DNA of 21,916 nt, taken from the IMG/VR virus record IMGVR_UViG_3300025164_001490, positions 1 through 21,916 of that record; one strand, written 5' to 3'. A model generated the notes under the pieces. The model was not told where the DNA came from, did not search any database, and saw only the letters and a list, made by a program, of their open reading frames with translations. Within the stretch, counting starts at the first letter, position 1. Each line of letters opens with the position of its first letter. The DNA comes from a virus. Made by a program: the position numbers and the translations under genes. Positions 3,564 through 21,916 of this stretch are shown here, in pieces.

Positions 3564-6500
3564 CTATTTCGCCGCAGACCACGTAGTTGCGTATTTCGCA
3601 CTTACCTTCAGGGGCACCCGCCAATCGATGTGACTCATCGATGCCTCCATGTGGTTCACAATGATGATCTTGGCTTCTTCGGCGTGCTGGTCCGGTACTT
3701 CTTCCACGACTTCGTCGTGAACCTGGAGCACGAGATCCGCCCCCATGGTCTTGAGCACTGGATCGTTCGTGATCGCGGGCATGTAGTAGCGCATCAGGTC
3801 TGCTGCGGAGTTGTGAGTGATGACCCCGTTGACCATAAATCGTCCAGTGTCGCTGTTGACTACATCGAACATCTCGATGTATTCTTCAGTTTCTGTTACG
3901 CTACGGACAATCTCTACCCTGCCGAAGGCTTTGGACACGTTGTCATTCGCGAGTAGGCTCAGCGCCTTTGCATTCTTCGCAGGGTTCAGGAATCCGATCT
4001 GTTGTACAAATTTATGGAGATCGCGAGTGCGTAATCGTACGAGTGTTCTATCGACGTAGGTATGGACTCGACTTTCGATGCCAAACAACAACAGTGCTTG
4101 CTGTATCTCTTCGGCGTAAGTTCTGAATCTTCCGCCTTGCCCGAATGTAAGGGCGATAGTTTTGCCTGTCACGCCACCATCGCCATCAAACATTCCCCGT
4201 AAGAATCCACGCAACAATTCAGAATCTTTGAATATCTCCGCTGGAATGCCATTCTTAAGGTTTAGTTCGGTGGCTTGACGTGCCAGGACAGCGGAGTCCA
4301 GATTGAGTATGTGCATGGGTAATTTGTTGGGGCGCTGACGTGTACAGAGTCTATACCGTAGCCCTGCGGTGCTCAGGCAGTCCAGCATGTAGGGAAGGAT
4401 ACTGATCTCGTGCTCCGCTACCAGCCAGGTCAAGGCTTTATTTCGAACGATAGTTCCGTCTGAGGCCAATCTACCCAGCATGATCCCTAGAGCTAGAGGA
4501 TTCTGTATGGCGCTGAGTGATATTCTTTTTGCGTTGCCGACACCATTCGGAGCTTTCCGGTGTGTCCTTAGTGTGGGTTTCGGAAGTTCTACATGACCAT
4601 GAAACTTTACTGCATGGGCAAGTTTGATGCGCTCTATTGGTGCAAATTCTAGTGCGGTTCTAAAGCGTTCCGATCCAACTTCGTTAACCGTAAGGAATTT
4701 GTGCTCAGGGCTACAGATGATTCGATTACCAGATGCAAATTCAACGAGTATTTTCTTTTTCATACCGGAAGCGATCACCACCGCGCCGACAAAGGCGTTA
4801 CCATCCCATATCCTTACCGATCTATTGACGAGCGACTTGATAGGAACGTAGCCGTGACCTTCGACCAATACCCTGGAGTTTCCCTCAACACAGCCCTGGA
4901 TGATGGCGTTGAAGAGCTGGCGCTCCGCTTTGGAGGAAGCCCGTATGTTGTTGGACCAGATCTCCGGCAGCCGTCGGCGCCTGTTCAGCAGCGTGAGGAC
5001 AAACCCATTGGCCTTGCAGAAACCTGTGTGATACTTCTTGGCCTGGAGTATCCCAGGGAATGTTTTGAAGAACAGGTCGATGATCGCTCTGGCTTCCTCA
5101 AGCGTAACCCCAAGGTTGGCGGCCAATCGTTTGTCCCCCATGCCGTACAGGATGCCGAAGAGCAATGTCTTGGCCGACTTGCGGCACGCCAACATCTTCT
5201 TTTGTGCGGACGTCAGGACACCACCCGACTCCTTGAGAACCTTGGCCTCGAGGATGTCCTCGTACTTGAGGTCAAACAGGCTCGCGGCCGTGTAGGCGTG
5301 GAGGTCGCGGCCCTCTAGCAACACCTTGATCAAATTCTCATCACCCGATATCTGGGCCGTGAGCAAGACCTCCAGTTGGCTGAAATCCGCCACCACGAGG
5401 GATCTGCCCTCCGGGGCCTTGAAGGCAATCCGGATATCGTACTGCTGGATGCGCTCGTCTTCCGATGGGTTCTCGACGTTCTGTAGATTTGGTGAGGCAG
5501 AACTGGTACGTCCGGTCCGAGTCCCGGTGACGCGAAACTGACAATGGACTCGTCCGTCACTCTTGATATGGCTGGACAAGCCCTCGACATATGTGCTCAA
5601 CAGCTTGCTGAGTTTCCGGTGCTCCAACAGGGGGGTAATGTCATCGGGGTAGTCTTCCTCCAGGATTTCGAGTGCCTCTTTTTTGTACGAGGCCTTCCGT
5701 ATCCCGCTGGCCCCGCCATCCGTGTACTTGACGATCGGCATCCCGATGGTCTCGTGGAACAACCGGTGTAGCTGGTCACTGGAGTTTAGGTTGATGACAT
5801 GGCCTGCCCGCTGGGTGTAGAAGTTCTCAATCTCCTGAATCCTTGATTTCAAAGGAGCTTCGTACCGTTTGAGCGCATGGGCCTCGACGCAGGCGCCGTT
5901 GTGCTCCATCGTCCAGATGGACTTGACATACGGTTCCTCCATCTCGATGTAGTAGTCCCAAAGGGATTTGCCGTCTTGCCATACCTGCTCCTCAAGCCGA
6001 CGCTTGAGTTCGTAAAAAAGCAGCAGGGTGGCGTAGGGATCGGTGGCCGCGTAGTCTAGGAATACTTCTCGTTTGGTCTCCATGGCCCACTCGGCCGGCG
6101 ACAGGTTGATCCCCTTGGGCGGTTTCTTAAACAGGGTGCTGAATGGCTTCATCCCGTGGATTAATCCGTAATCTCCGCAACATTCCTTGAGTCCATGGCG
6201 ACCGTACCGGTTCTCATCCACCAGGTGGTCCATCACCAGGGTGTCGAACACCCGGGCACGGAATCCCGGGCGAACCCTCCAGGTGCGCCAACAGATGTGG
6301 GCGTCGTAGGGGTAGTTGTGGGCAATGACGTCAACCCCAACGCAGTCGAGCATCGAGACCAACGGGACCGCGACCACGGGGTTGGGTTCGAATACCAGGC
6401 GGGACCCTTGCGCAAGATCGAACAATTGGTCACCCCATTGGGGTCTCCAGGGTGTCTTGGGAACGCTCAAGGACACCAGGACGTTGCGGGCGACGTGGGG

Positions 6501-6626
6501 ATCCTCACTCGTGGTTTCGGTATCGAACGCCACGATCCCCAGGTCGCGGATCACCTGGGACAAGACCAAAGCCTCGGCCTCAGTCTTGATTTCGATGTAT
6601 GGTAGAAGGGAGTGAAATTTTGGCAT
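3564..6626 (-). CDS. polA: Family A DNA polymerase (3'-5' exonuclease plus polymerase), intein-containing precursor
   Basis: The precursor is 1020 residues; the spliced product would be 659. The proofreading domain has D35 and E37 (FDTETT), N104 and D108 (AHNYPYD), and Y192 and D196 (DYAATD). The polymerase domain has motif A with D414 (ADFSQLE), motif B with R482, K486, F490 and Y494 (RKSAKTLLFGILYG), and motif C with H970, D971, E972 (QVHDEV). There is no 5'-nuclease domain, as is usual for phage replicative enzymes. The intein occupies residues 579-939, inside the conserved QG|SAAD segment between motifs B and C, so the precursor should be inactive until spliced. Motif A lacks the Arg of canonical SQIELR (here SQLEVL). 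The start is weakly preceded by GGTGATG, and the reading frame overlaps the upstream gene by 47 bases, suggesting coupled translation. Confidence 0.95.
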   Translation of the reverse strand: MPKFHSLLPYIEIKTEAEALVLSQVIRDLGIVAFDTETTSEDPHVARNVLVSLSVPKTPWRPQWGDQLFDLAQGSRLVFEPNPVVAVPLVSMLDCVGVDVIAHNYPYDAHICWRTWRVRPGFRARVFDTLVMDHLVDENRYGRHGLKECCGDYGLIHGMKPFSTLFKKPPKGINLSPAEWAMETKREVFLDYAATDPYATLLLFYELKRRLEEQVWQDGKSLWDYYIEMEEPYVKSIWTMEHNGACVEAHALKRYEAPLKSRIQEIENFYTQRAGHVINLNSSDQLHRLFHETIGMPIVKYTDGGASGIRKASYKKEALEILEEDYPDDITPLLEHRKLSKLLSTYVEGLSSHIKSDGRVHCQFRVTGTRTGRTSSASPNLQNVENPSEDERIQQYDIRIAFKAPEGRSLVVADFSQLEVLLTAQISGDENLIKVLLEGRDLHAYTAASLFDLKYEDILEAKVLKESGGVLTSAQKKMLACRKSAKTLLFGILYGMGDKRLAANLGVTLEEARAIIDLFFKTFPGILQAKKYHTGFCKANGFVLTLLNRRRRLPEIWSNNIRASSKAERQLFNAIIQGCVEGNSRVLVEGHGYVPIKSLVNRSVRIWDGNAFVGAVVIASGMKKKILVEFASGNRIICSPEHKFLTVNEVGSERFRTALEFAPIERIKLAHAVKFHGHVELPKPTLRTHRKAPNGVGNAKRISLSAIQNPLALGIMLGRLASDGTIVRNKALTWLVAEHEISILPYMLDCLSTAGLRYRLCTRQRPNKLPMHILNLDSAVLARQATELNLKNGIPAEIFKDSELLRGFLRGMFDGDGGVTGKTIALTFGQGGRFRTYAEEIQQALLLFGIESRVHTYVDRTLVRLRTRDLHKFVQQIGFLNPAKNAKALSLLANDNVSKAFGRVEIVRSVTETEEYIEMFDVVNSDTGRFMVNGVITHNSAADLMRYYMPAITNDPVLKTMGADLVLQVHDEVVEEVPDQHAEEAKIIIVNHMEASMSHIDWRVPLKVSAKYATTWSAAK
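3810..4892 (-). mobile_element. Intein with LAGLIDADG homing endonuclease in DNA polymerase
   Basis: A 361-residue in-frame insertion. It begins with Cys1 (CVEGNSRVL) after extein Gly578 and ends VNGVITHN before extein Ser940. Splicing elements are present: Cys1, block B His at intein residue 64 (SPEHKF), penultimate His and terminal Asn, and Ser+1. Two dodecapeptide motifs, LGIMLGRLASDGT (Asp145) and LRGFLRGMFDGDG (Asp236/238), mark a LAGLIDADG endonuclease that looks intact. The gene removes itself at protein level and can home into empty polA alleles. A sampled 60-base line (4201-4260) is about 40% G+C, against about 60% at 5401-5460 in the host gene, which suggests separate ancestry. The absence of any stop and the protein-splicing ends rule against an intron. 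Confidence 0.95.
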
Positions 6627-12804: not shown

Positions 12805-14109
12805 TTACACATCCTTCTGGACCCTGTAGCCCGAGACCGTCAGGGATTCCATTGTCTTGTTCAGTGTCCTGATGAAGGCTGGGTGCCGCGCCGCGTAAAA
12901 CCATGCCTGCGGTTCTTGCCCGCCTTCACGTTCGAGCCGCCCAACCGTCTGGACCACGGCGTTGCGGTCTTTCATCGGGGTCACGACCCTGAGGGTATCG
13001 AGTGATGGTTCACTCAATCCTTCTTTTCCGAATAGCTCGATTGCCAAGGTAATGGGCTTGGTCCGGAGGTTCGCGAGCCGGACATCTGCCGGAGTTTCCA
13101 TGATGTTGATCCCGGGGGCAAGGTCATGCAACCTGTCCCTGAGGTTCAACAATACTTGCCGACGGCTCGAGATGATGAGTTGCTTTCGAAGTTGACGGTA
13201 TCCTTCTCGAATGTCTGTCTCCAGGACCCCGAGGTATTGTTCCGATTCGGCCAACTGGGTGACCGCCACGGCGTAGTTGTCGTCCAGCAGCAGGTCATCC
13301 ATCCGGACGAGCCGGAAGAATACCGAGGCCTTGGCCCTGGTGGAGTCTCGATAGAACACGTTCTTACTCAAGGCATGGTAGTAGACGAACGACAGGTAGT
13401 CCTCTCGCGCCAGGGTGGCGGACAACCCTATGCGGCGCCCTGGGAAAGCATTGGCCACCCCGGAGAACACGGGGGCAGCGAGATGATGCATCTCGTCCAT
13501 AATAATGCATCCATATATTTCGCCTAGCATACGCTTGTTAGTTTCATCGAGCGCAAGGACCGACTGGACCAGCGCGACGGTGAAGGGCTGGAGATCAAGA
13601 TCTCCGGATATCACCCGGCCTACCCGTTTGATCGACGTCTCCTTCAGGATCACCTCGGTCCATTGTTCCAGGATGTCTTTCGTGTGGGCCACCACCAGGG
13701 TCCAGCGACCGTACTCCACCGCGGCCTTGAGGGCGATGTACATCTTGCCCTCTCCGCACCGAAGACTCACGATAGCGTCGGACTGCCCTGGGGGCAGGGT
13801 CCCGGCGTCCCGGAGGAACTGGATGGCATCGACCTGCAACTGGTCCCTCGGGACAATAGCGCAGTGCTCCGCCACCGTGGGGAAATCCTTGGGGCCACGG
13901 TAGTGCGTAGGGGTAGAGGCGAGGTCAAGGTAGTGCCTTGGGGCCACGATGTGGTCGGGGGTCTCGTGGTACAGTTTCACCACCTTGGCCACGGTTGCCC
14001 TTCCGGTGGGTAGTACAATATACTGTAGGTCGTACATGGCTTTATCGGCCTCGGGGGTACCCCGGGGTAACCAAAGCATTTGATCCAGGAGGATACCCGT
14101 GTTCGACAT
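12805..14109 (-). CDS. SF2 DExH helicase (UvsW/XPB-like)
   Basis: A helicase-translocase of up to 434 residues. Motif I is SLRCGEGKMYIAL, with K122 but Met123 where Thr or Ser is expected. Motif Ia is VVAHTKDILEQW, motif II DEMH (205-208), motif III SAT (230-232), and motif VI QTVGRLERE near residue 390. The family includes T4 UvsW and XPB/RAD25, which remodel branched DNA and R-loops; the UvsX, nuclease and DnaB genes in the same cluster fit that role. It is the first gene of the minus-strand cluster. The start is uncertain: neither the ATG at 14109 nor the one at 14079 (MLWLPRGTPE) has a good SD. The longer version overlaps the divergent plus-strand gene by 11 bases. Confidence 0.88.
   Translation of the reverse strand: MSNTGILLDQMLWLPRGTPEADKAMYDLQYIVLPTGRATVAKVVKLYHETPDHIVAPRHYLDLASTPTHYRGPKDFPTVAEHCAIVPRDQLQVDAIQFLRDAGTLPPGQSDAIVSLRCGEGKMYIALKAAVEYGRWTLVVAHTKDILEQWTEVILKETSIKRVGRVISGDLDLQPFTVALVQSVLALDETNKRMLGEIYGCIIMDEMHHLAAPVFSGVANAFPGRRIGLSATLAREDYLSFVYYHALSKNVFYRDSTRAKASVFFRLVRMDDLLLDDNYAVAVTQLAESEQYLGVLETDIREGYRQLRKQLIISSRRQVLLNLRDRLHDLAPGINIMETPADVRLANLRTKPITLAIELFGKEGLSEPSLDTLRVVTPMKDRNAVVQTVGRLEREGGQEPQAWFYAARHPAFIRTLNKTMESLTVSGYRVQKDV
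13995..14024 (+). promoter_or_regulatory. Possible sigma70-like promoter for the plus-strand cluster
   Basis: TTGCCC (13995-14000), an 18-base spacer, and TATACT (14019-14024) lie about 75 bases before the GTG start of the first plus-strand gene. The site is inside the 5' coding part of the divergent helicase gene, which is expected because almost no intergenic DNA exists here. The -10 is embedded in a locally AT-rich patch (TAGTACAATATACTG) in otherwise GC-rich DNA. Phage-polymerase promoters may look quite different, so this remains a weak call. Confidence 0.3.
14087..14092 (+). promoter_or_regulatory. Consensus SD that fixes a GTG start
   Basis: AGGAGG lies six bases before GTG at 14099. 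No in-frame ATG with a comparable signal is nearby, so this site supports the GTG start of the 337-residue protein. On the opposite strand it falls inside, or just before, the helicase reading frame. Confidence 0.8.
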
Positions 14110-15112
14110 ATATGATGATGCTGGAGCGTTACTGAAGCGGCTCTACCCAGATGTCTCTCAACTTCCCAAGTTTGTCCTCATGGGCCAACCCAGGCAATTC
14201 GATCTTCCAAAGTATGCGTCCGATGACTTTGCCGTCGCGGTGCCGCTGCACGATGGGATCAAGTATGCTTACCCCTTGATGACCCCTGGGGCCACGGCGG
14301 TGAGTTGTCTCTACTTCGAACATACGCATCAAAATCTTCCTGCTGATCTTCGCAAGGAAGCGGCCACTCGATTGCTCGAAGCATGTGACCACCATTCCCT
14401 GGAGGTGACGGAAAAAGTTGCGGAATTAGCGACAGAGTATCAGGAAGAAGAAAAAACCGCAAGTTTTAAGACCCGGTTCCCGGACCAAGGGATCGAGGGC
14501 ACCCCGTGGTTCCCTCTCTCGACGGCCGAACAAGTAAAGCTCGCGACAGACCTATACCCCCAGATCATCCGAAAACTGGCACCATCGGAACGACGGGAGT
14601 TTACCTTGAACCTGCAGAAACAGGCGTCGGCCCATGGGCTCGGGATGCCCGATACCGCTGCCCAGTGGGGCGGGAACGTCTTGGCCAAGGGGCTGGTGCT
14701 CGATGGCGTGGAGAAGCGGGCCTCCATGATGAATCCCCAGCAGGCCGAGTTGCTCCGGGGGGCGATTGACCAGATCCTTGTGATGTCACCCGAAAAGGTG
14801 GCATCGGTGTTTGAACAGCTGGATCAAGAGCTTGGGTTTGATGTCCTGTGGGACACCAAGCTGCGGGATCCCCAGGCTATCCATGGGTTTTCTGAACCTG
14901 AGGTTGAGTTGGTGAAGTTCGCGGAGTTCGAAATGTCACGTGAACATTGGGACGCAGCGTGCGATGCGGGCCTGTTGGATGTCTTCGAAGACGACACCAA
15001 ACGGGCACTTCGCCAGCACCCCGAGGTGTTGGACGAATACACCGGGACCCCGGTGCTCCAGCACATCCTCGACGGGCTCGAATCCCTTGGGATCGTCCAG
15101 GGGGACAACTGA
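14099..15112 (+). CDS. Putative phage structural/morphogenesis protein with internal duplication
   Basis: A 337-residue protein with a GTG start. It holds two similar segments, residues 58-115 (YPLMT ... YFE ... LPADLRKEAATRLLEACDHHSL) and 138-195 (FPLST ... LYP ... LAPSERREFTLNLQKQASAHGL), sharing a [YF]PLxT start, an Arg-Glu pair and a final Ala-x-x-His-x-Leu pattern. A helical, acidic region follows (200-337). I do not know a named family. It opens the plus-strand structural cluster two genes before portal, which suggests a virion or head-assembly role, but no direct evidence exists. The stop TGA at 15110 is in the same frame as the short segment at 15122-15157 and the next gene. Confidence 0.85.
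   Translation: MFDIYDDAGALLKRLYPDVSQLPKFVLMGQPRQFDLPKYASDDFAVAVPLHDGIKYAYPLMTPGATAVSCLYFEHTHQNLPADLRKEAATRLLEACDHHSLEVTEKVAELATEYQEEEKTASFKTRFPDQGIEGTPWFPLSTAEQVKLATDLYPQIIRKLAPSERREFTLNLQKQASAHGLGMPDTAAQWGGNVLAKGLVLDGVEKRASMMNPQQAELLRGAIDQILVMSPEKVASVFEQLDQELGFDVLWDTKLRDPQAIHGFSEPEVELVKFAEFEMSREHWDAACDAGLLDVFEDDTKRALRQHPEVLDEYTGTPVLQHILDGLESLGIVQGDN
14270..14683 (+). repeat. Two-fold divergent protein repeat within the 337-residue gene
   Basis: Copy 1 is 14270-14443 and copy 2 is 14510-14683, each 58 codons, separated by 66 bases. The repeat is visible at protein level only: aromatic-PLxT at the start, a Tyr at position 15 or so, then a basic Arg-Glu helix and an Ala-rich helix ending in His-x-Leu. 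The DNA sequences have diverged, so the duplication is old. Confidence 0.6.
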
Positions 15113-15121
15113 CGGATAATC

Positions 15122-15157
15122 ATGTATCGTGATGGCGATTCTGTAGCGATGAGGTGA
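15122..15157 (+). pseudogene. Short coding remnant or leader peptide duplicating part of the next gene
   Basis: An 11-codon frame, MYRDGDSVAMR then TGA, sits in the 69-base gap before the next gene. Codons 15131-15151 encode DGDSVAM, the same seven residues encoded at 15281-15301 in the following gene. The two DNA copies match at 17 of 21 bases, and all four differences are at third codon positions without changing an amino acid. That pattern implies both copies were under protein-level selection. The frame is the same as both neighbouring genes, separated only by TGA codons. It could be a remnant of a duplicated gene or a translated leader. The SD is weak (GGAT). Confidence 0.35.
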
Positions 15158-15181
15158 CTCTCGCGTGGACCAGAAACCCAG

Positions 15182-15859
15182 ATGTCAAAAATTTCATCCC
15201 TATTCAATCGCCCAGAAATTCATCCCCTTGTACTCGACGTCGGGCTCGTTGAAATCTTTGGGCCCGAGTGGATCACGTGGGATGGGGACTCCGTCGCGAT
15301 GGCGGCGGCGAGACAATCGGGCGGATCGGTAAGTCGAGCTACACAGTCGAAAATTAACGGGTTGCTTGTGCTTCACGGTACCCATGGGTATTGGGAAGAC
15401 TGGCGGGCATTTGAGGATGTCTCCTGGGGACTGTCGGGCCATCAGGTTGACCTCGCGCAATTGACCCCCTTGACCGCCGTGGTGCTGCTCTATGGGTACC
15501 GCACGGCCAAGTGGATTGATTCCAAGAGTGAATTCTCTGATGACGTCATTGCCTACATCTTGGCCGTGATGTTGAGCGAGCAGTTCAGTCTATTGCCTAC
15601 TGACCTTGGGTTCCTGCAGTCACGATTTCTTGAGGCTAATCCATTGGCCAGCAATAGGGCCGAGTTGGTGAAGGCGGGGTTGATCGCTGGGATCAAGACT
15701 CCAGCGAGCAATACCGAAGAGAATGCGATCTCGGTCGAGTTACTTCGACATTCGAATTTGGAAACAGTGTTGGCATCCTCGTGTTCCATCGAGATCATTA
15801 CCCAGCAGGCTGATGCATTTGGGCTAGGCCGTACCGTGCGGGCAGTATTGGAGGTTTAG
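15182..15859 (+). CDS. Hypothetical phage protein upstream of portal
   Basis: A 225-residue protein with no family I can name. The N-terminal third contains HPLVLDVGLVEIFGPEW followed by a WDGDSVAM segment, a middle portion is Trp/Phe-rich (YWEDWRAFEDVSWGLSG), and the C-terminal half is helical. No membrane segment or enzyme motif is visible. The ATG at 15182 is the only usable start after an in-frame TGA at 15155, but its SD is poor, so expression may depend on re-initiation after the upstream frames. It ends one base before the portal ATG, so co-expression with portal and a head or neck role are likely inferences. Confidence 0.8.
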   Translation: MSKISSLFNRPEIHPLVLDVGLVEIFGPEWITWDGDSVAMAAARQSGGSVSRATQSKINGLLVLHGTHGYWEDWRAFEDVSWGLSGHQVDLAQLTPLTAVVLLYGYRTAKWIDSKSEFSDDVIAYILAVMLSEQFSLLPTDLGFLQSRFLEANPLASNRAELVKAGLIAGIKTPASNTEENAISVELLRHSNLETVLASSCSIEIITQQADAFGLGRTVRAVLEV

Positions 15860-15860
15860 C

Positions 15861-17720
15861 ATGAGTGTTACGTTTGGTAATCCAGATCGGCCCTCTACGG
15901 TTACGGACTTTGTCGCGCGGGGCGGTACCATTCGGTACCCAAACCCCTTCTTCGACGTGGCCCAGACCTACATGCCGACCACGGTCAAGCACCTGTTTAG
16001 TTTCTGCAAGACCTACTATCTTGGCAACGGGCTGGTCAACAACGTGATCAACCGGATGGCCTACTACCCAGTGACTAAGCTCCGGTACGGCCAGAAGACC
16101 AAGAACAAATCCACCGACGATTATGTCGAATTGTTTGAAGAGCAACTGAACCTTGAATCCTTCCTCATTGAGGTTGGGGTCAATGTCCTGGTGTTCGGCA
16201 ACGCCTACATGTCGGTTCACTATCCGATCCGCAAGATGCTCACCTGCACGGCGTGCAAGCATGAGATGGCGGCCGACACGGTAAATTACAAATTCGAGCG
16301 ATTTGAATTCAAGCTTAGTCCTTGTCCTCGATGCGGTTCCGTAGCGATCGCTACAGTACGGGACATGGCGATAGCATCGTCCAGGAAGATCAACTTGATC
16401 CGATGGGACGTGATGGACGTGGAGGTGTTTTTCAACCAAGCCAACGGGATGTCGTATTACATCTTGTCGGTCCCCATGACCACTGCCAAGGCCATTACCG
16501 AGGGCAACACCCTGTTGATCAACGATACGCCCCAGGTGTTTATCGATGCGGTCAAGCGAAAGGAGAAGATTCTTCTCAACAGCCAGAATGTATTCCACAT
16601 GAGGCGCCCGAGCCTCGCGGGCCAGGACATGGGCCTGGGGATCCCGTTGGTTCTCCCGGCGATGAAAGACCTCTACCTCATGCAGGTGTTGAAGAAGTCC
16701 CAAGAGGTCATTGCCCACGAACATATCGTGCCCTTGCGGATCCTCCACCCCGCTACCTCAACAAACGTGGATCCAATCCAAACGATGGATTTGACTTCAT
16801 GGCAATCGACTGCCCGGTCAGAGTTGGCCCGTTGGCGGCAAGATCAAAACTATATCCCGATGCTCCCGATGCCCATTGGGTTCCAGTATCTTGGGGGCCA
16901 GGGAAAATCACTCCTGTTGACCAACGAACTCAAGCAGTTGTCCGAGAGCATCGTGATGTCGTTGAACGCTCCAATTGAGTTTGCGTTCGGCGGTTCGACT
17001 TACAGTGGCAGTAGCGTGACCCTCCGGATGCTGGAGAACCAGTTCCTACGCCACCAGAGCCAGCTACTTAAGTTGGTCAAGTTCATCACTTCGTCGATCT
17101 GTAATGTCCTTCGGATCGAGCCCCCTACGGTTGAGTTTACTTCACTCCGGACGGCTGACGATATTCAGCGCAAGAGCATCCTGATGCAGCTGAACCAGAT
17201 GAATCGAGTTTCCGCCAGGACATTGCTCGAGGAGTTCAACCTTGATCCTGCTGATGAAGAGAAGATGATCGAAACGGAGCTTGGGGCTCGTAACCGGATG
17301 GAACAAAAGCAATTCCTCCAAAGCGCTGAGAACCAAGGCAAAGCCCAGGTGATTGGCGCCAGGTACCAAAGCAACGCCCAGATGGAGGCCATGAAATCGA
17401 CAAGCAGGCTCCAGGGAATGCCCTCGACCCAGGCGCAAGCCCAGGCGGAACAAGGGGGTGTCCAAGGAAGTCAGCCCGGGGGCCAGCCCGAAGGTCAGGA
17501 AGGCCCCATGGTGTTGTCGGAAAAGCAGATCAAGTCTGCAGTCAAGGAATTGGCAGGGTTGCAGGAAGGGGAACGGGCCCAGGCGCTCCAGCAATTGGGT
17601 CAGAAGATTGACCCCCAGAGCCTCCAGATGATCATTGGGATCCTGGGCCAGAAACCCAATGACAATATGAAACCACTGCCGGATCAGCGGCCGCCTCGGC
17701 GCCACAAGGCCCTGGTGTAG
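15861..17720 (+). CDS. Portal protein with inserted zinc ribbon
   Basis: A 619-residue protein with the features of a large-phage portal, the ring at the capsid vertex through which DNA passes. Helical and beta segments around NVLVFGNAYMSVHYP (108-122) are followed by CTAC (C129, C132) and CPRC (C155, C158), a likely zinc ribbon. Residues near 380-430 (NAPIEFAFGGSTYSGSSVTL, then a long helix) resemble the portal stem and crown region, and residues about 500-545 are Gln/Gly/Pro-rich before a helical end and a basic C-terminus (RRHKALV). GGAGG lies six bases before the ATG. No domain search was possible, so the assignment rests on pattern, size and neighbourhood; terminase is not in the window. 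Confidence 0.75.
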   Translation: MSVTFGNPDRPSTVTDFVARGGTIRYPNPFFDVAQTYMPTTVKHLFSFCKTYYLGNGLVNNVINRMAYYPVTKLRYGQKTKNKSTDDYVELFEEQLNLESFLIEVGVNVLVFGNAYMSVHYPIRKMLTCTACKHEMAADTVNYKFERFEFKLSPCPRCGSVAIATVRDMAIASSRKINLIRWDVMDVEVFFNQANGMSYYILSVPMTTAKAITEGNTLLINDTPQVFIDAVKRKEKILLNSQNVFHMRRPSLAGQDMGLGIPLVLPAMKDLYLMQVLKKSQEVIAHEHIVPLRILHPATSTNVDPIQTMDLTSWQSTARSELARWRQDQNYIPMLPMPIGFQYLGGQGKSLLLTNELKQLSESIVMSLNAPIEFAFGGSTYSGSSVTLRMLENQFLRHQSQLLKLVKFITSSICNVLRIEPPTVEFTSLRTADDIQRKSILMQLNQMNRVSARTLLEEFNLDPADEEKMIETELGARNRMEQKQFLQSAENQGKAQVIGARYQSNAQMEAMKSTSRLQGMPSTQAQAQAEQGGVQGSQPGGQPEGQEGPMVLSEKQIKSAVKELAGLQEGERAQALQQLGQKIDPQSLQMIIGILGQKPNDNMKPLPDQRPPRRHKALV

Positions 17721-17723
17721 CCG

Positions 17724-20700
17724 GTGGCATACTTTACAACTGAGGAATCCGACGGTCACGCTAAAGACGCGGTAGAACGGGCGATCAAAGAAGTCTTCAC
17801 CGACATAACCGTGGGGGACAAGACCTTGCGGCTTGACGGTGTGCAGGTAGACCAGCGGCTTGACCCCCAGGATTACGAATCTCAGCGCCAAACCAAGTTG
17901 AAATCAGGGGTCTGGGGGATGTCGGTCTCGGGGCTGTTCTCGCTGTTGGATCAAAATGGAAAGGTCAAGGACACGGGTCGGGTCAAGCTCATGACCTTGC
18001 CGCAGAAGACTGCTCGCCATACCTTCATCTTTGGAGGCCAGGAGTATCAATTCGATACTCAGTTTCGACTCAAGCCAGGGATATACACCCGGGTGACGGA
18101 CGCGGGAGAGTTTGCCTCCAGGATTTCGGCCGAGGGGAAATATTACCGCAATACCGAAATATTCTTTGATCCCCAGACCAAGGTCTACACCCTTGGGGTA
18201 GGGACTTCCCACGTACCCCTCGCGACCCTGTTGGATCTCATGGGGGTGTCGGTCCAAGAGCTTGAACTTGCGGTCGGCAAGGAGGTCGCAACCGCGAACC
18301 TGGGGAAGGCGAAGCCCGGGGACTACAGCAAGCTCTACAAGGCGTTGTTCGACCTGGACCCTGGACCTAAACCGGATTACCAGGTGATCGTCCAGGCGCT
18401 CCATGACAGCAAGCTTGATCCTGATGCCACCGAGTACACCACGGGCATGAGGTTATCTTCGGTCGACAAGACCGCGATCCTCACGACCATGAAGAAACTG
18501 TTCAAGCTGGTCAGAGGGGAGACAGAGGAGGATGACCCCAACAGCCTGGTGACCAAGTCGGTCCATTACTACGAGGACTATCTTCGTGAGTGGATCCTGA
18601 AACATGGAAGCGAAGTACGGCGAAAGATTTCCAACAAATTGCCTCACGCCAATAAGGTGGAGGATACGATCTCGACCTCCATCCTGATGCCGGCGATCGG
18701 GAAGCTCTTTACCGCGACCCCGTTGGCTCAACGGCGCGAACAGCACAATGTCGTAGACATTCTGTCGGGTACCGGCAAGACAACGCTCCGGGGTCCCGGG
18801 GGGATATCAGACCCCAACATGATTCGGGACGACATGAGGACGATCCATTCGTCCCACATGGGGTTCTTGGACCCGATCAAGACACCGGAAGGTTCGACCA
18901 TCGGGACAACCTTGTTCTTGTCTTCGTTGGCCAGGAAGCGGGGCAACGAACTGGTCGCGACCTTCATGGACGTGAAGACTGGCAAGGAGGTGGACCTCAC
19001 GCCCAAACAAGTGTTCGACACCGTGGTGGCGTTCCCTGACGAGTATGACTTTGAGGTCAAGCCACCGAAGGCAAAATCCAGCAAGGTGATGGCTTCCCAC
19101 CGGGGTGACGTGCGAGACTACCCGCCATCCGAGGTTCAATACGTCCCAGCTTCCCAGGCGGGACTGTTCCACCACACGACCAACCTGATCCCTTTTCTTC
19201 GATCGAACAACGGCGTCAGGGCCATGACGGCGTCTCGTCAGATCGAGCAGGCCATCTCCTTGACCCATCGGGAAGCCCCCCTGGTACAACTGAAGTACGG
19301 TCGCTCCGATTCGACCGCTGAGCAGGGGTTCGGTCGCTACCTTGGGGCCAGCCTCAGTCTAGTGGATGGTGAAGTTTCGTCTGTCCGGCAAGGCAAAATC
19401 ATCGTGAAGGACAAGGCCGGGGCTTCCTCGGTAGTCAACACGTATCGAGATTTTCCACTCAACAACTCCAAGGGGTACATCAACTCCGAGGCCTTGGTAT
19501 CCGTGGGGGATAAGGTGAAGAAGGGTCAGGTGTTGGCCGATACCAATTACACGAAGAACGGGACCCTTGCCCTTGGGACGAACCTTCGGGTCGCGTACGT
19601 CCCGTGGAAGGGCCTGTTGTTTGAGGATGCCTTGGCCATCAGCGAGTCCGCAGCCACCAAGCTGACTAGCGATCATCTCCACCAGTTCGTCGTGGAGTTG
19701 GGGGAGAAGTCGATCTCGGGTCGAGACAAATTCCGTAACTATTTTCCCAACAACATCTCCCATGCCCAGTCCCAGAAATTAGACTCCGACGGCGTCATCA
19801 CGGTGGGGCAGGAAGTCAGCCGAGGGGATTACCTCTACGCGGGAATGTTTGAGAAAGAAGTTGATCCGGACAGCGAAGCGATCCTTCGGGTCGGGACCCG
19901 GGCGTTCCAATCGTTCGGTGACTCCTCGATCCAGTGGGAGAAAGATTACCCCGGGGTCGTGACCGCGGTGGAGAAGTTCGCCAAAAAGTACATCGTCCAC
20001 GTGAAGACCAAGGAACCGGCCGTCGAAGGAGACAAGCTGGTTGGGCGCCACGGGAACAAAGGGATCATCAGCAAGATTGTCCCGGATGCCGAGATGCCCC
20101 ATGACCTCGAGGGCAAGCCATTCGAAATCCTGATGAACCCCGCGTGTTACGACGACAAGACAGAAGTTTTGACAGAAAATGGGTGGTTGCCTTTCTCACA
20201 GGTTAGTCAAGGCGACGTCGTAGCGTCTATGCATCCAAACGGAGAGTTAGTATATGAAAGTGTGCTGGCAGTTCATCGAAGTTTTTATGTTGGGCCAATG
20301 TACAGGATCAAGAATAAAAAACTTGACCTTATGGTAACGCCAAACCATAGGATGTACACGCGAAAAGGAGACAGCAATGAGAAATCGCCGTATGAAATCA
20401 ATGAAGCGAAGAAAATTTTTGGCCAGCGGCGCTACTACTTAAAGAATTCTGAAAAATGGGTGGGTAGTTCTGCAGAGGTTGTGCGCTTCGGAGAACCTGA
20501 AGATCGTGATGGTACTGGGCCAAAAGCCGACCCAAGAAAACTGGAAATAGCCCCCAGTGAATTTGCCGAGTTCCTAGGAGTGTTCATCGCCGAAGGCTGG
20601 GCGTGTAGGCGAGAGGGTGGCATCTATGATGTGGGTTTAAGTCAGTCACAGAGATTGAATCCAGATAAATGCGTGGAGATCGAACGCTTTTTGGCTCTAT

Positions 20701-21916
20701 TACCGTGGTCGTTTTCCAGGCGTGAAAGAGACAACGGTCAAGTTGAGTGGACTGCACGAAATAGGGAATTATGCCTTTGGCTCATGGAACATGTGGGCAC
20801 AGGGGCCAAGAACAAACGTATACCACGCCAGGCACTGGCGTGGCCGAGCGCTACCTTAGAATTACTGCTTAACGGGCTCATGCTGGGCGATGGATCGACA
20901 CGAAATTCACCTCAAACGTCCCACTACGACAACCGGAGGTATTTTACGGCCTCGAAAGGTCTGGCGGACGACGTGCAGGAACTTGCGCTTAAGCTTGGTG
21001 TTTCTGCACAGATAACGACACAAATTAGTTGTTTCAGAGAAACCGTTACGGATATCTTTGTGGTCAGTTTTTTGAAACGGTCAACACCTTCTGTTAATTG
21101 GCCAGGGAAAAAACATGCACAAGTGGAAAAGTGGGTACATTACGAAGGCGATGTATTCTGCTTGACTGTTCCCAGCGGGCTACTGTATGTTCGTAGGAAT
21201 GGTGTGCCAGTATGGTCTGGTAATTCTGTCGTCGGGCGTGTGAACCTGGGGCAAGTGTACGAGACCCTCGTGGGCAAGGTGGCGGCCAAGACGGGGAACC
21301 CCGTGGTGGTGGACAACTTCGCCTCCGAGCAAGACAACCATAAGTACGTGGCCGACATGTTGAAGAAGCATGGGCTTCAAGATCGCGAAATCGTGGTGGA
21401 TCCGGTCGACGGACCCACGGAAAACCCGGTGCTCACGGGCAACCAATACATCTTTAAGTTGACCCATCAGGTTGATAAGAAGCTATCGGCTCGAGGGGCA
21501 GTGTCCAAGACCACGGGGGAAAGGCTCCAGTACACGGGTGACAAGATTCCATCGAAGGGCGGTTCCGAAGGTGGCCAATCGATCGGTATCCTCGACACCT
21601 ACGCCCTGTTGGCCAACGGGGCAACGGCGAACCTCAAGGAGATGTTCTCGTACAAGGGGGACGCTCAGAATGCTTTGTTTTGGTCAACATTGAAGAACGG
21701 AGGTGTCTTGCCGGCCGCCGAGGTGCCGTTCACCGCAACCAAGTTTCTCGCGCTCCTGGAAGCCATGGGGGTACATGTCAAGAAGGATGGCAATTCGCTC
21801 CAACTGCTCCCCATGACGGATCGAGACATCGAGACCATGTCGGCCGGCGAATTGAAGAACCCCGGCCAGGCGCTCGACGCGAAGCTCCGGCCGTACCAAG
21901 GGGGTATCTTCGATTC
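17724..21916 (+). CDS. rpoB: Phage-encoded multisubunit RNA polymerase beta subunit, intein-containing, 3' partial
   Basis: At least 1397 codons, open at the window end. Beta hallmarks appear in order: HSSHMGFLDPIKTPEGSTIG (372-391), matching the bacterial THYGRVCPIETPEG segment; a FEDALAISE segment; GDKLVGRHGNKG (769-780 region), which carries the two active-site Lys residues; GRVNLGQVYE; and a late segment with KLSARG ... GGSEGGQSIGILDTYAL matching bacterial HARSTG ... GGQRFGEMEVWAL. Beta forms one half of the RNA polymerase active centre. This is a single chain, not split as in phiKZ-type phages. An intein occupies residues 808-1167. GTG at 17724 follows the portal stop by three bases, with a weak SD, so translation is probably coupled. 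A beta-prime partner should lie outside the window. Confidence 0.95.
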   Translation, partial: MAYFTTEESDGHAKDAVERAIKEVFTDITVGDKTLRLDGVQVDQRLDPQDYESQRQTKLKSGVWGMSVSGLFSLLDQNGKVKDTGRVKLMTLPQKTARHTFIFGGQEYQFDTQFRLKPGIYTRVTDAGEFASRISAEGKYYRNTEIFFDPQTKVYTLGVGTSHVPLATLLDLMGVSVQELELAVGKEVATANLGKAKPGDYSKLYKALFDLDPGPKPDYQVIVQALHDSKLDPDATEYTTGMRLSSVDKTAILTTMKKLFKLVRGETEEDDPNSLVTKSVHYYEDYLREWILKHGSEVRRKISNKLPHANKVEDTISTSILMPAIGKLFTATPLAQRREQHNVVDILSGTGKTTLRGPGGISDPNMIRDDMRTIHSSHMGFLDPIKTPEGSTIGTTLFLSSLARKRGNELVATFMDVKTGKEVDLTPKQVFDTVVAFPDEYDFEVKPPKAKSSKVMASHRGDVRDYPPSEVQYVPASQAGLFHHTTNLIPFLRSNNGVRAMTASRQIEQAISLTHREAPLVQLKYGRSDSTAEQGFGRYLGASLSLVDGEVSSVRQGKIIVKDKAGASSVVNTYRDFPLNNSKGYINSEALVSVGDKVKKGQVLADTNYTKNGTLALGTNLRVAYVPWKGLLFEDALAISESAATKLTSDHLHQFVVELGEKSISGRDKFRNYFPNNISHAQSQKLDSDGVITVGQEVSRGDYLYAGMFEKEVDPDSEAILRVGTRAFQSFGDSSIQWEKDYPGVVTAVEKFAKKYIVHVKTKEPAVEGDKLVGRHGNKGIISKIVPDAEMPHDLEGKPFEILMNPACYDDKTEVLTENGWLPFSQVSQGDVVASMHPNGELVYESVLAVHRSFYVGPMYRIKNKKLDLMVTPNHRMYTRKGDSNEKSPYEINEAKKIFGQRRYYLKNSEKWVGSSAEVVRFGEPEDRDGTGPKADPRKLEIAPSEFAEFLGVFIAEGWACRREGGIYDVGLSQSQRLNPDKCVEIERFLALLPWSFSRRERDNGQVEWTARNRELCLWLMEHVGTGAKNKRIPRQALAWPSATLELLLNGLMLGDGSTRNSPQTSHYDNRRYFTASKGLADDVQELALKLGVSAQITTQISCFRETVTDIFVVSFLKRSTPSVNWPGKKHAQVEKWVHYEGDVFCLTVPSGLLYVRRNGVPVWSGNSVVGRVNLGQVYETLVGKVAAKTGNPVVVDNFASEQDNHKYVADMLKKHGLQDREIVVDPVDGPTENPVLTGNQYIFKLTHQVDKKLSARGAVSKTTGERLQYTGDKIPSKGGSEGGQSIGILDTYALLANGATANLKEMFSYKGDAQNALFWSTLKNGGVLPAAEVPFTATKFLALLEAMGVHVKKDGNSLQLLPMTDRDIETMSAGELKNPGQALDAKLRPYQGGIFD
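20145..21224 (+). mobile_element. Intein with LAGLIDADG homing endonuclease in RNA polymerase beta
   Basis: A 360-residue in-frame insertion between extein MNPA and SVVGRVNLGQ, where bacterial beta has the continuous LNPLGVPSRMNIGQ stretch. It starts with Cys1 (CYDDKTEVLTENGW), has block B TPNH (His68 of the intein), and ends GVPVWSGN before Ser+1. The penultimate residue is Gly instead of His, seen in some active inteins. Endonuclease motifs are FLGVFIAEGW (Glu150) and LLNGLMLGDGS (Asp249), both intact. Two sampled 60-base lines here are 40-43% G+C against 65% just after the insertion. It is clearly a different lineage from the polymerase intein: the ends, block B and endonuclease motifs differ. 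Confidence 0.95.

Follow-up and report, generated by a model that had tools for sequence, protein, structure and literature searches.

A candidate severed gene start, carrying a heptapeptide repeat, upstream of a portal-adjacent phage gene

The locus described here raises the question of what a short frame is doing in the gap between two phage genes when a seven-residue stretch of it, DGDSVAM, is encoded a second time inside the downstream gene (Table 1). The window, i.e., the whole stretch of DNA that was analyzed, is the complete virus record IMGVR_UViG_3300025164_001490, with a length of 21,916 bases. The original prediction had given coordinates for both copies, a match of 17 out of 21 bases with synonymous third-position changes only, a spacing of 150 bases, and a common frame in which the upstream gene, the short frame, and the downstream gene are separated by TGA stop codons, all of which was exact on rechecking. 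The four mismatches are GGC/GGG, GAT/GAC, TCT/TCC, and GTA/GTC. From this arrangement, it had proposed that the gap holds a remnant of a duplicated gene, a selected leader peptide, or part of a single product reached by TGA readthrough.

Table 1. Features in and around the gap, in window coordinates
Feature	Position	Strand	Basis or remark
Upstream gene, 337 aa, conserved neighbor, uncharacterized	14099-15112	+	phmmer/HMM relatives in related loci; TGA stop at 15110-15112
Short frame MYRDGDSVAMR, 11 codons	15122-15157	+	Shares the frame of the downstream gene, of which it is the proposed severed 5′ end (family comparison)
DGDSVAM, copy 1	15131-15151	+	Inside the short frame, upstream of the second copy
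Candidate hairpin, TGA in GUGA loop	15146-15164	+	-9.3 kcal/mol alone, z -2.9
Shine-Dalgarno (SD)-like GAGGTGA	15151-15157	+	Well spaced for GTG 15165 (other frame); 24 nt from ATG 15182
In-frame TGA between short frame and downstream gene	15155-15157	+	Same in three other contigs
Downstream gene, 225 aa from ATG 15182, all-helical uncharacterized phage protein	15182-15859	+	Relatives, model, BFVD match
DGDSVAM, copy 2	15281-15301	+	Residues 34-40 of the downstream protein
Portal gene	15861-17720	+	29% identity to the Salmonella phage Arash portal

The gap and its genomic context

The short frame begins at ATG 15122, in frame and 9 nt past the upstream stop codon, and ends at a second in-frame TGA located 43-45 nt after that stop. 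The first in-frame start codon beyond the second TGA is ATG 15182, 24 nt on. It is unlikely that any of this reflects an assembly error, which the original prediction had named as grounds for its own refutation. The interval 15080-15320 is identical in three other IMG/VR contigs, and these differ from the window by 1-3 bases elsewhere in the compared stretches, which makes them separate assemblies and not copies.

Related loci preserve the upstream and downstream genes as neighbors located 5′ of the portal and RNA polymerase beta genes. Portal and RNA polymerase beta genes are close neighbors in several hundred IMG/VR stretches, and the phage group that they mark is large, mostly uncultured, and related to Salmonella phage Arash and Vibrio phages D181 and D69. 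Like the window, these three phages have a portal gene followed by a small gene and an RNA polymerase beta gene, with a helicase upstream. However, their portal proteins are 28-29% identical to that of the window, and HMMs of the upstream and downstream proteins retrieved no match in the Arash and Vibrio loci. A tblastn search of the phages collection with both proteins likewise returned no match up to E = 1, neither protein matched a PHROG or Pfam family, and a scan of 18 family members for known families gave stray matches only, in one member each.

Related loci were collected by a portal-based scan, which yielded 365 related stretches, and by a polymerase-based scan, which yielded 347, with 80 kept from each. 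Near-copies of the window aside, the closest relatives in the kept stretches reach at most approximately 41% identity. The downstream protein is homologous to a portal-adjacent helical family (best phmmer E of 2.2e-20), and its gene is located between the upstream gene and the portal gene, as it is in that family. It is a divergent member, with no more than 26% identity to any family member in the tree alignment and a very long branch; no position in the tree was obtained for it, and its start region is not alignable residue by residue to those of its relatives.

The start of the downstream gene among relatives

The family survey began with 113 matches, which were reduced to 87 distinct downstream frames; for 78 of these, the locus also contains the upstream gene. 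Near-copies of the window (L001-L006, L008-L011, and L093-L100) were excluded from the count. When the two genes are close together, i.e., when fewer than 260 nt separate the upstream stop from a conserved "HP" anchor in the downstream protein, every one of the 42 distinct relatives has a downstream frame that is open as far as the upstream stop. This count is an independent one, as the relatives in it were selected by distance alone. The stop-to-anchor distance in the window is 103 nt, inside the family range, and yet the window is the only member with an in-frame stop in this stretch (0 of the 42 close-spaced relatives have one). A frame open to the upstream stop is a usual rather than a defining trait of closely spaced members, and the TGA at 15155-15157 removes it from the window. 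Of the 36 relatives with wider spacing (at least 260 nt), 8 likewise have a downstream gene starting at the upstream stop.

The 50 relatives with an open frame form a set defined by that very trait and used solely for start offsets and extension lengths. Their start codons are offset from the upstream stop by -17 to +17 nt (median -1), compared with +9 for ATG 15122 and +69 for ATG 15182 in the window. Counted from start codon to anchor, relatives have 7-160 codons, ATG 15122 would give 31, and ATG 15182 gives 11; an extension of 11 codons or fewer is seen in only 2 of the 50. Because the family frame is open to the upstream stop and ATG 15122 stands at the family start position, the simplest reading of these comparisons, and the most likely one, makes the short frame the original 5′ end of the downstream gene, which the TGA has severed from the remainder. 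Three points count against this reading. The start region of the divergent window protein is not alignable to those of its relatives, an in-frame start codon could occur near the upstream stop by chance, and none of the related loci was found to come from a close relative whose frame runs unbroken across the TGA.

The predicted protein structures are compatible with such a loss. The protein translated from ATG 15182 was modeled as a complete helical fold (pLDDT of 91.6). In contrast, the N-terminal extension of one relative (L053) has a pLDDT of 36-53 in residues 1-50, with most of its domain well predicted, and disorder-promoting residues in 50 relatives have a frequency of 0.59 before the anchor versus 0.45 in the domain that follows. 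With the extension modeled as disordered in a relative and the window domain complete in its model, an extension could be lost and the protein remain intact. The fold predicted for the BFVD entry A0A6J5LQ26, an uncharacterized phage protein of 283 residues, matches that of the downstream protein (E of 1.3e-9, TM of 0.75 by query), which has 225 residues in the window. Searches of the downstream model against solved structures using Foldseek and VIA-align 2 gave nothing convincing, which should not be taken as evidence of a new fold. A Cys-rich, strand-bearing insert that appears in both the L053 model and the family consensus has no counterpart in the downstream protein of the window.

In this family the downstream gene begins where the upstream gene ends, with a loose N-terminal extension preceding the helical domain, and we infer that a nonsense change to TGA in the window lineage cut off its first 11 codons. 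The protein would now most probably be made from ATG 15182, with most of the extension gone and the folded domain intact. Ribosomes ending the upstream gene would restart at ATG 15122, and, after the TGA ending at 15157, part of them, or fresh ribosomes, would start at ATG 15182, such that the short frame may act as a stepping stone across the 69-nt gap. The SD score of ATG 15122 (-3.5) is like those of relatives, and that of ATG 15182 (-3.0) is weak, a point against this account. Considering the account as a whole, we hold with moderate confidence that the downstream gene once began, or in translation still begins, with the short frame.

Prokaryotic termination-reinitiation, as treated in PMC12548453 and PMC10666635, resembles the window in its co-oriented frames and its short stop-to-start gaps, here of 9 and 24 nt. 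The window differs in having an 11-codon frame between two genes. Section 6 of the review PMC12548453 describes coupling as reduced but real up to approximately 30-40 nt, and both spacings fall inside this range, which counts in favor of restart. In contrast, PMC10666635 describes gaps of approximately 20 nt as almost abolishing coupling, which counts against restart over 24 nt and leaves the proposed restart contested. The window locus amounts to a small natural test of the stop-to-start distance that allows restart in a phage operon.

The locus is largely ordinary, and the best label for it is a start region that a stop codon has severed in a single lineage of an uncharacterized, widespread phage gene. 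For annotation, the value of the family comparison is that it places the start of the downstream gene in relatives, and it suggests that the window lineage lost or severed this start and kept the folded domain.

The DGDSVAM repeat

The likeness between the two DGDSVAM sites is limited to 21 bases, and the flanking sequences do not match at an offset of 150. Both sites also encode an identical seven-residue peptide, IATESPS, in an antisense frame, and the pattern of purely synonymous differences is therefore not particular to the sense frame. When windows were simulated, an identical seven-residue pair appeared in 1 of 60 under a third-order Markov model and in 2 of 400 under a second-order one, the criterion being any such pair no more than 70 codons apart in one frame, with all six frames counted. 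A survey of 1.34 Mb of non-redundant related loci gave 898 pairs at first, and filtering on identity and flanks left 3 isolated comparable pairs, i.e., approximately 0.05 per window length; none of the 3 has a stop between its copies. Locus L025, a very dense repeat array, was the source of 894 of the initial 898 pairs. Near-repeats matching at 17 or more of 21 bases within 210 nt number 3 in the window, compared with 0.6 expected.

A chance origin of the match, at 0.5-5% per window, is uncommon and would be expected occasionally across many windows, and the dissimilar flanks together with the synonymy in the antisense frame make it the likely one. In addition, relatives of the downstream protein have W-EPETLW at the helix start where the window has its second DGDSVAM, so that no link to the gap is required to account for a motif at that site. 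The repeat is thus probably coincidental. A striking seven-residue synonymous repeat can be a coincidence, and yet this one led to a real anomaly at that very site, where a start region that otherwise stays open contains a stop.

In a rival reading, the short frame and the match are both due to chance, and the gap is plain spacer, with the downstream gene simply starting at ATG 15182. The repeat without flanking likeness, synonymous in the antisense frame too, fits this explanation, as does the complete model obtained for the protein from ATG 15182, and start codons are not uncommon close to a stop in any one frame. However, an untranslated gap of 69 nt would be an exception among closely spaced loci, given the open frame in every one of the 42 relatives. 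We consider a plain spacer unlikely, albeit an explanation that carries real weight.

Readthrough, duplication, and frameshifting

Readthrough of the TGA at some rate would yield a long form with the extension alongside a short form from ATG 15182. The two sides of the TGA do share one frame and are one gene in the family, and the TGA sits in the loop of a small hairpin. Nevertheless, this hairpin is unexceptional in longer context, being no better than shuffles when 51 or 88 nt are folded, and the stop is conserved in 0 of the 42 close-spaced relatives. TGA also ends 10 of the 18 listed window genes, including the upstream gene, whose C-terminus aligns with the C-termini of its relatives, and neither the window nor any of four related records, one of which is 78.5 kb long, yielded a tRNA gene. 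On the same two grounds, reassignment of TGA as a sense codon and a suppressor tRNA were both rejected. Past the TGA, the residues LSRGPETQ bear a GPxT likeness to relatives with short extensions; this likeness failed a profile test, in which 295 of 500 permutations scored at least as high, as did 177 of 500 random segments, and no protein conservation spanning the stop was demonstrated. The single product that the original prediction envisaged is therefore upheld by the family comparison as regards the anatomy of one gene. The readthrough itself is not, with TGA an ordinary stop, no tRNA gene, and a complete model for the protein from ATG 15182, and we regard it as improbable.

A slightly poorer case can be made for a duplication that copied part of the downstream gene into the gap. 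The two sites, 150 nt apart, share seven residues and 17 of 21 bases, which is rare in simulations, but the likeness stops abruptly at the ends of the 21 bases, and family members have W-EPETLW in place of DGDSVAM at the second site. The proposed duplicated-gene remnant likewise found no support among genes that lie between the upstream and downstream genes elsewhere. Of the remaining 28 wide-spaced relatives, most have another frame between the two genes, often beginning M-S-x-S-F-G (L026, with no such frame listed, and L024, with one of 52 aa only, are exceptions), and none of these frames begins like MYRDGDSVAMR. A remnant of an intervening gene was rejected on this basis, the peptide being too short for full exclusion. 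Many of the relatives L012-L089 carry an extra gene of approximately 245 residues at this position, often starting MxSKSFG. As for a selected leader peptide, a separate short frame is present in 0 of the 42 close-spaced relatives, and the near-identical copies of the window are too alike to carry a signal of selection.

The TGA might also be imagined as a regulated gate, at which a fixed share of ribosomes reads through to make the long form, the others restarting at ATG 15182 for the short form; the DGDSVAM of the extension would mimic the helix start, and the long form would thereby compete with the short form or block it. This is highly improbable. Equally hard to credit is a start at GTG 15165 followed by a -1 slip, at the A-run 15187-15191, to the frame of the downstream gene: GTG 15165 has the best nearby SD sequence (-6.9) at a suitable spacing and the run of five A residues is located after it, but this run is not a standard tandem slip site, a nearby stop that would force the shift is absent, and no close-spaced relative needs one.

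In the window, the genes for DNA polymerase A (3564-6626, minus strand) and, past the portal gene, RNA polymerase beta (17724-21914, plus strand) contain intein-like segments with LAGLIDADG domains. In locus L007 (152-3124), a related portal gene encodes an extra segment of approximately 320 residues that resembles an intein inside the portal protein.
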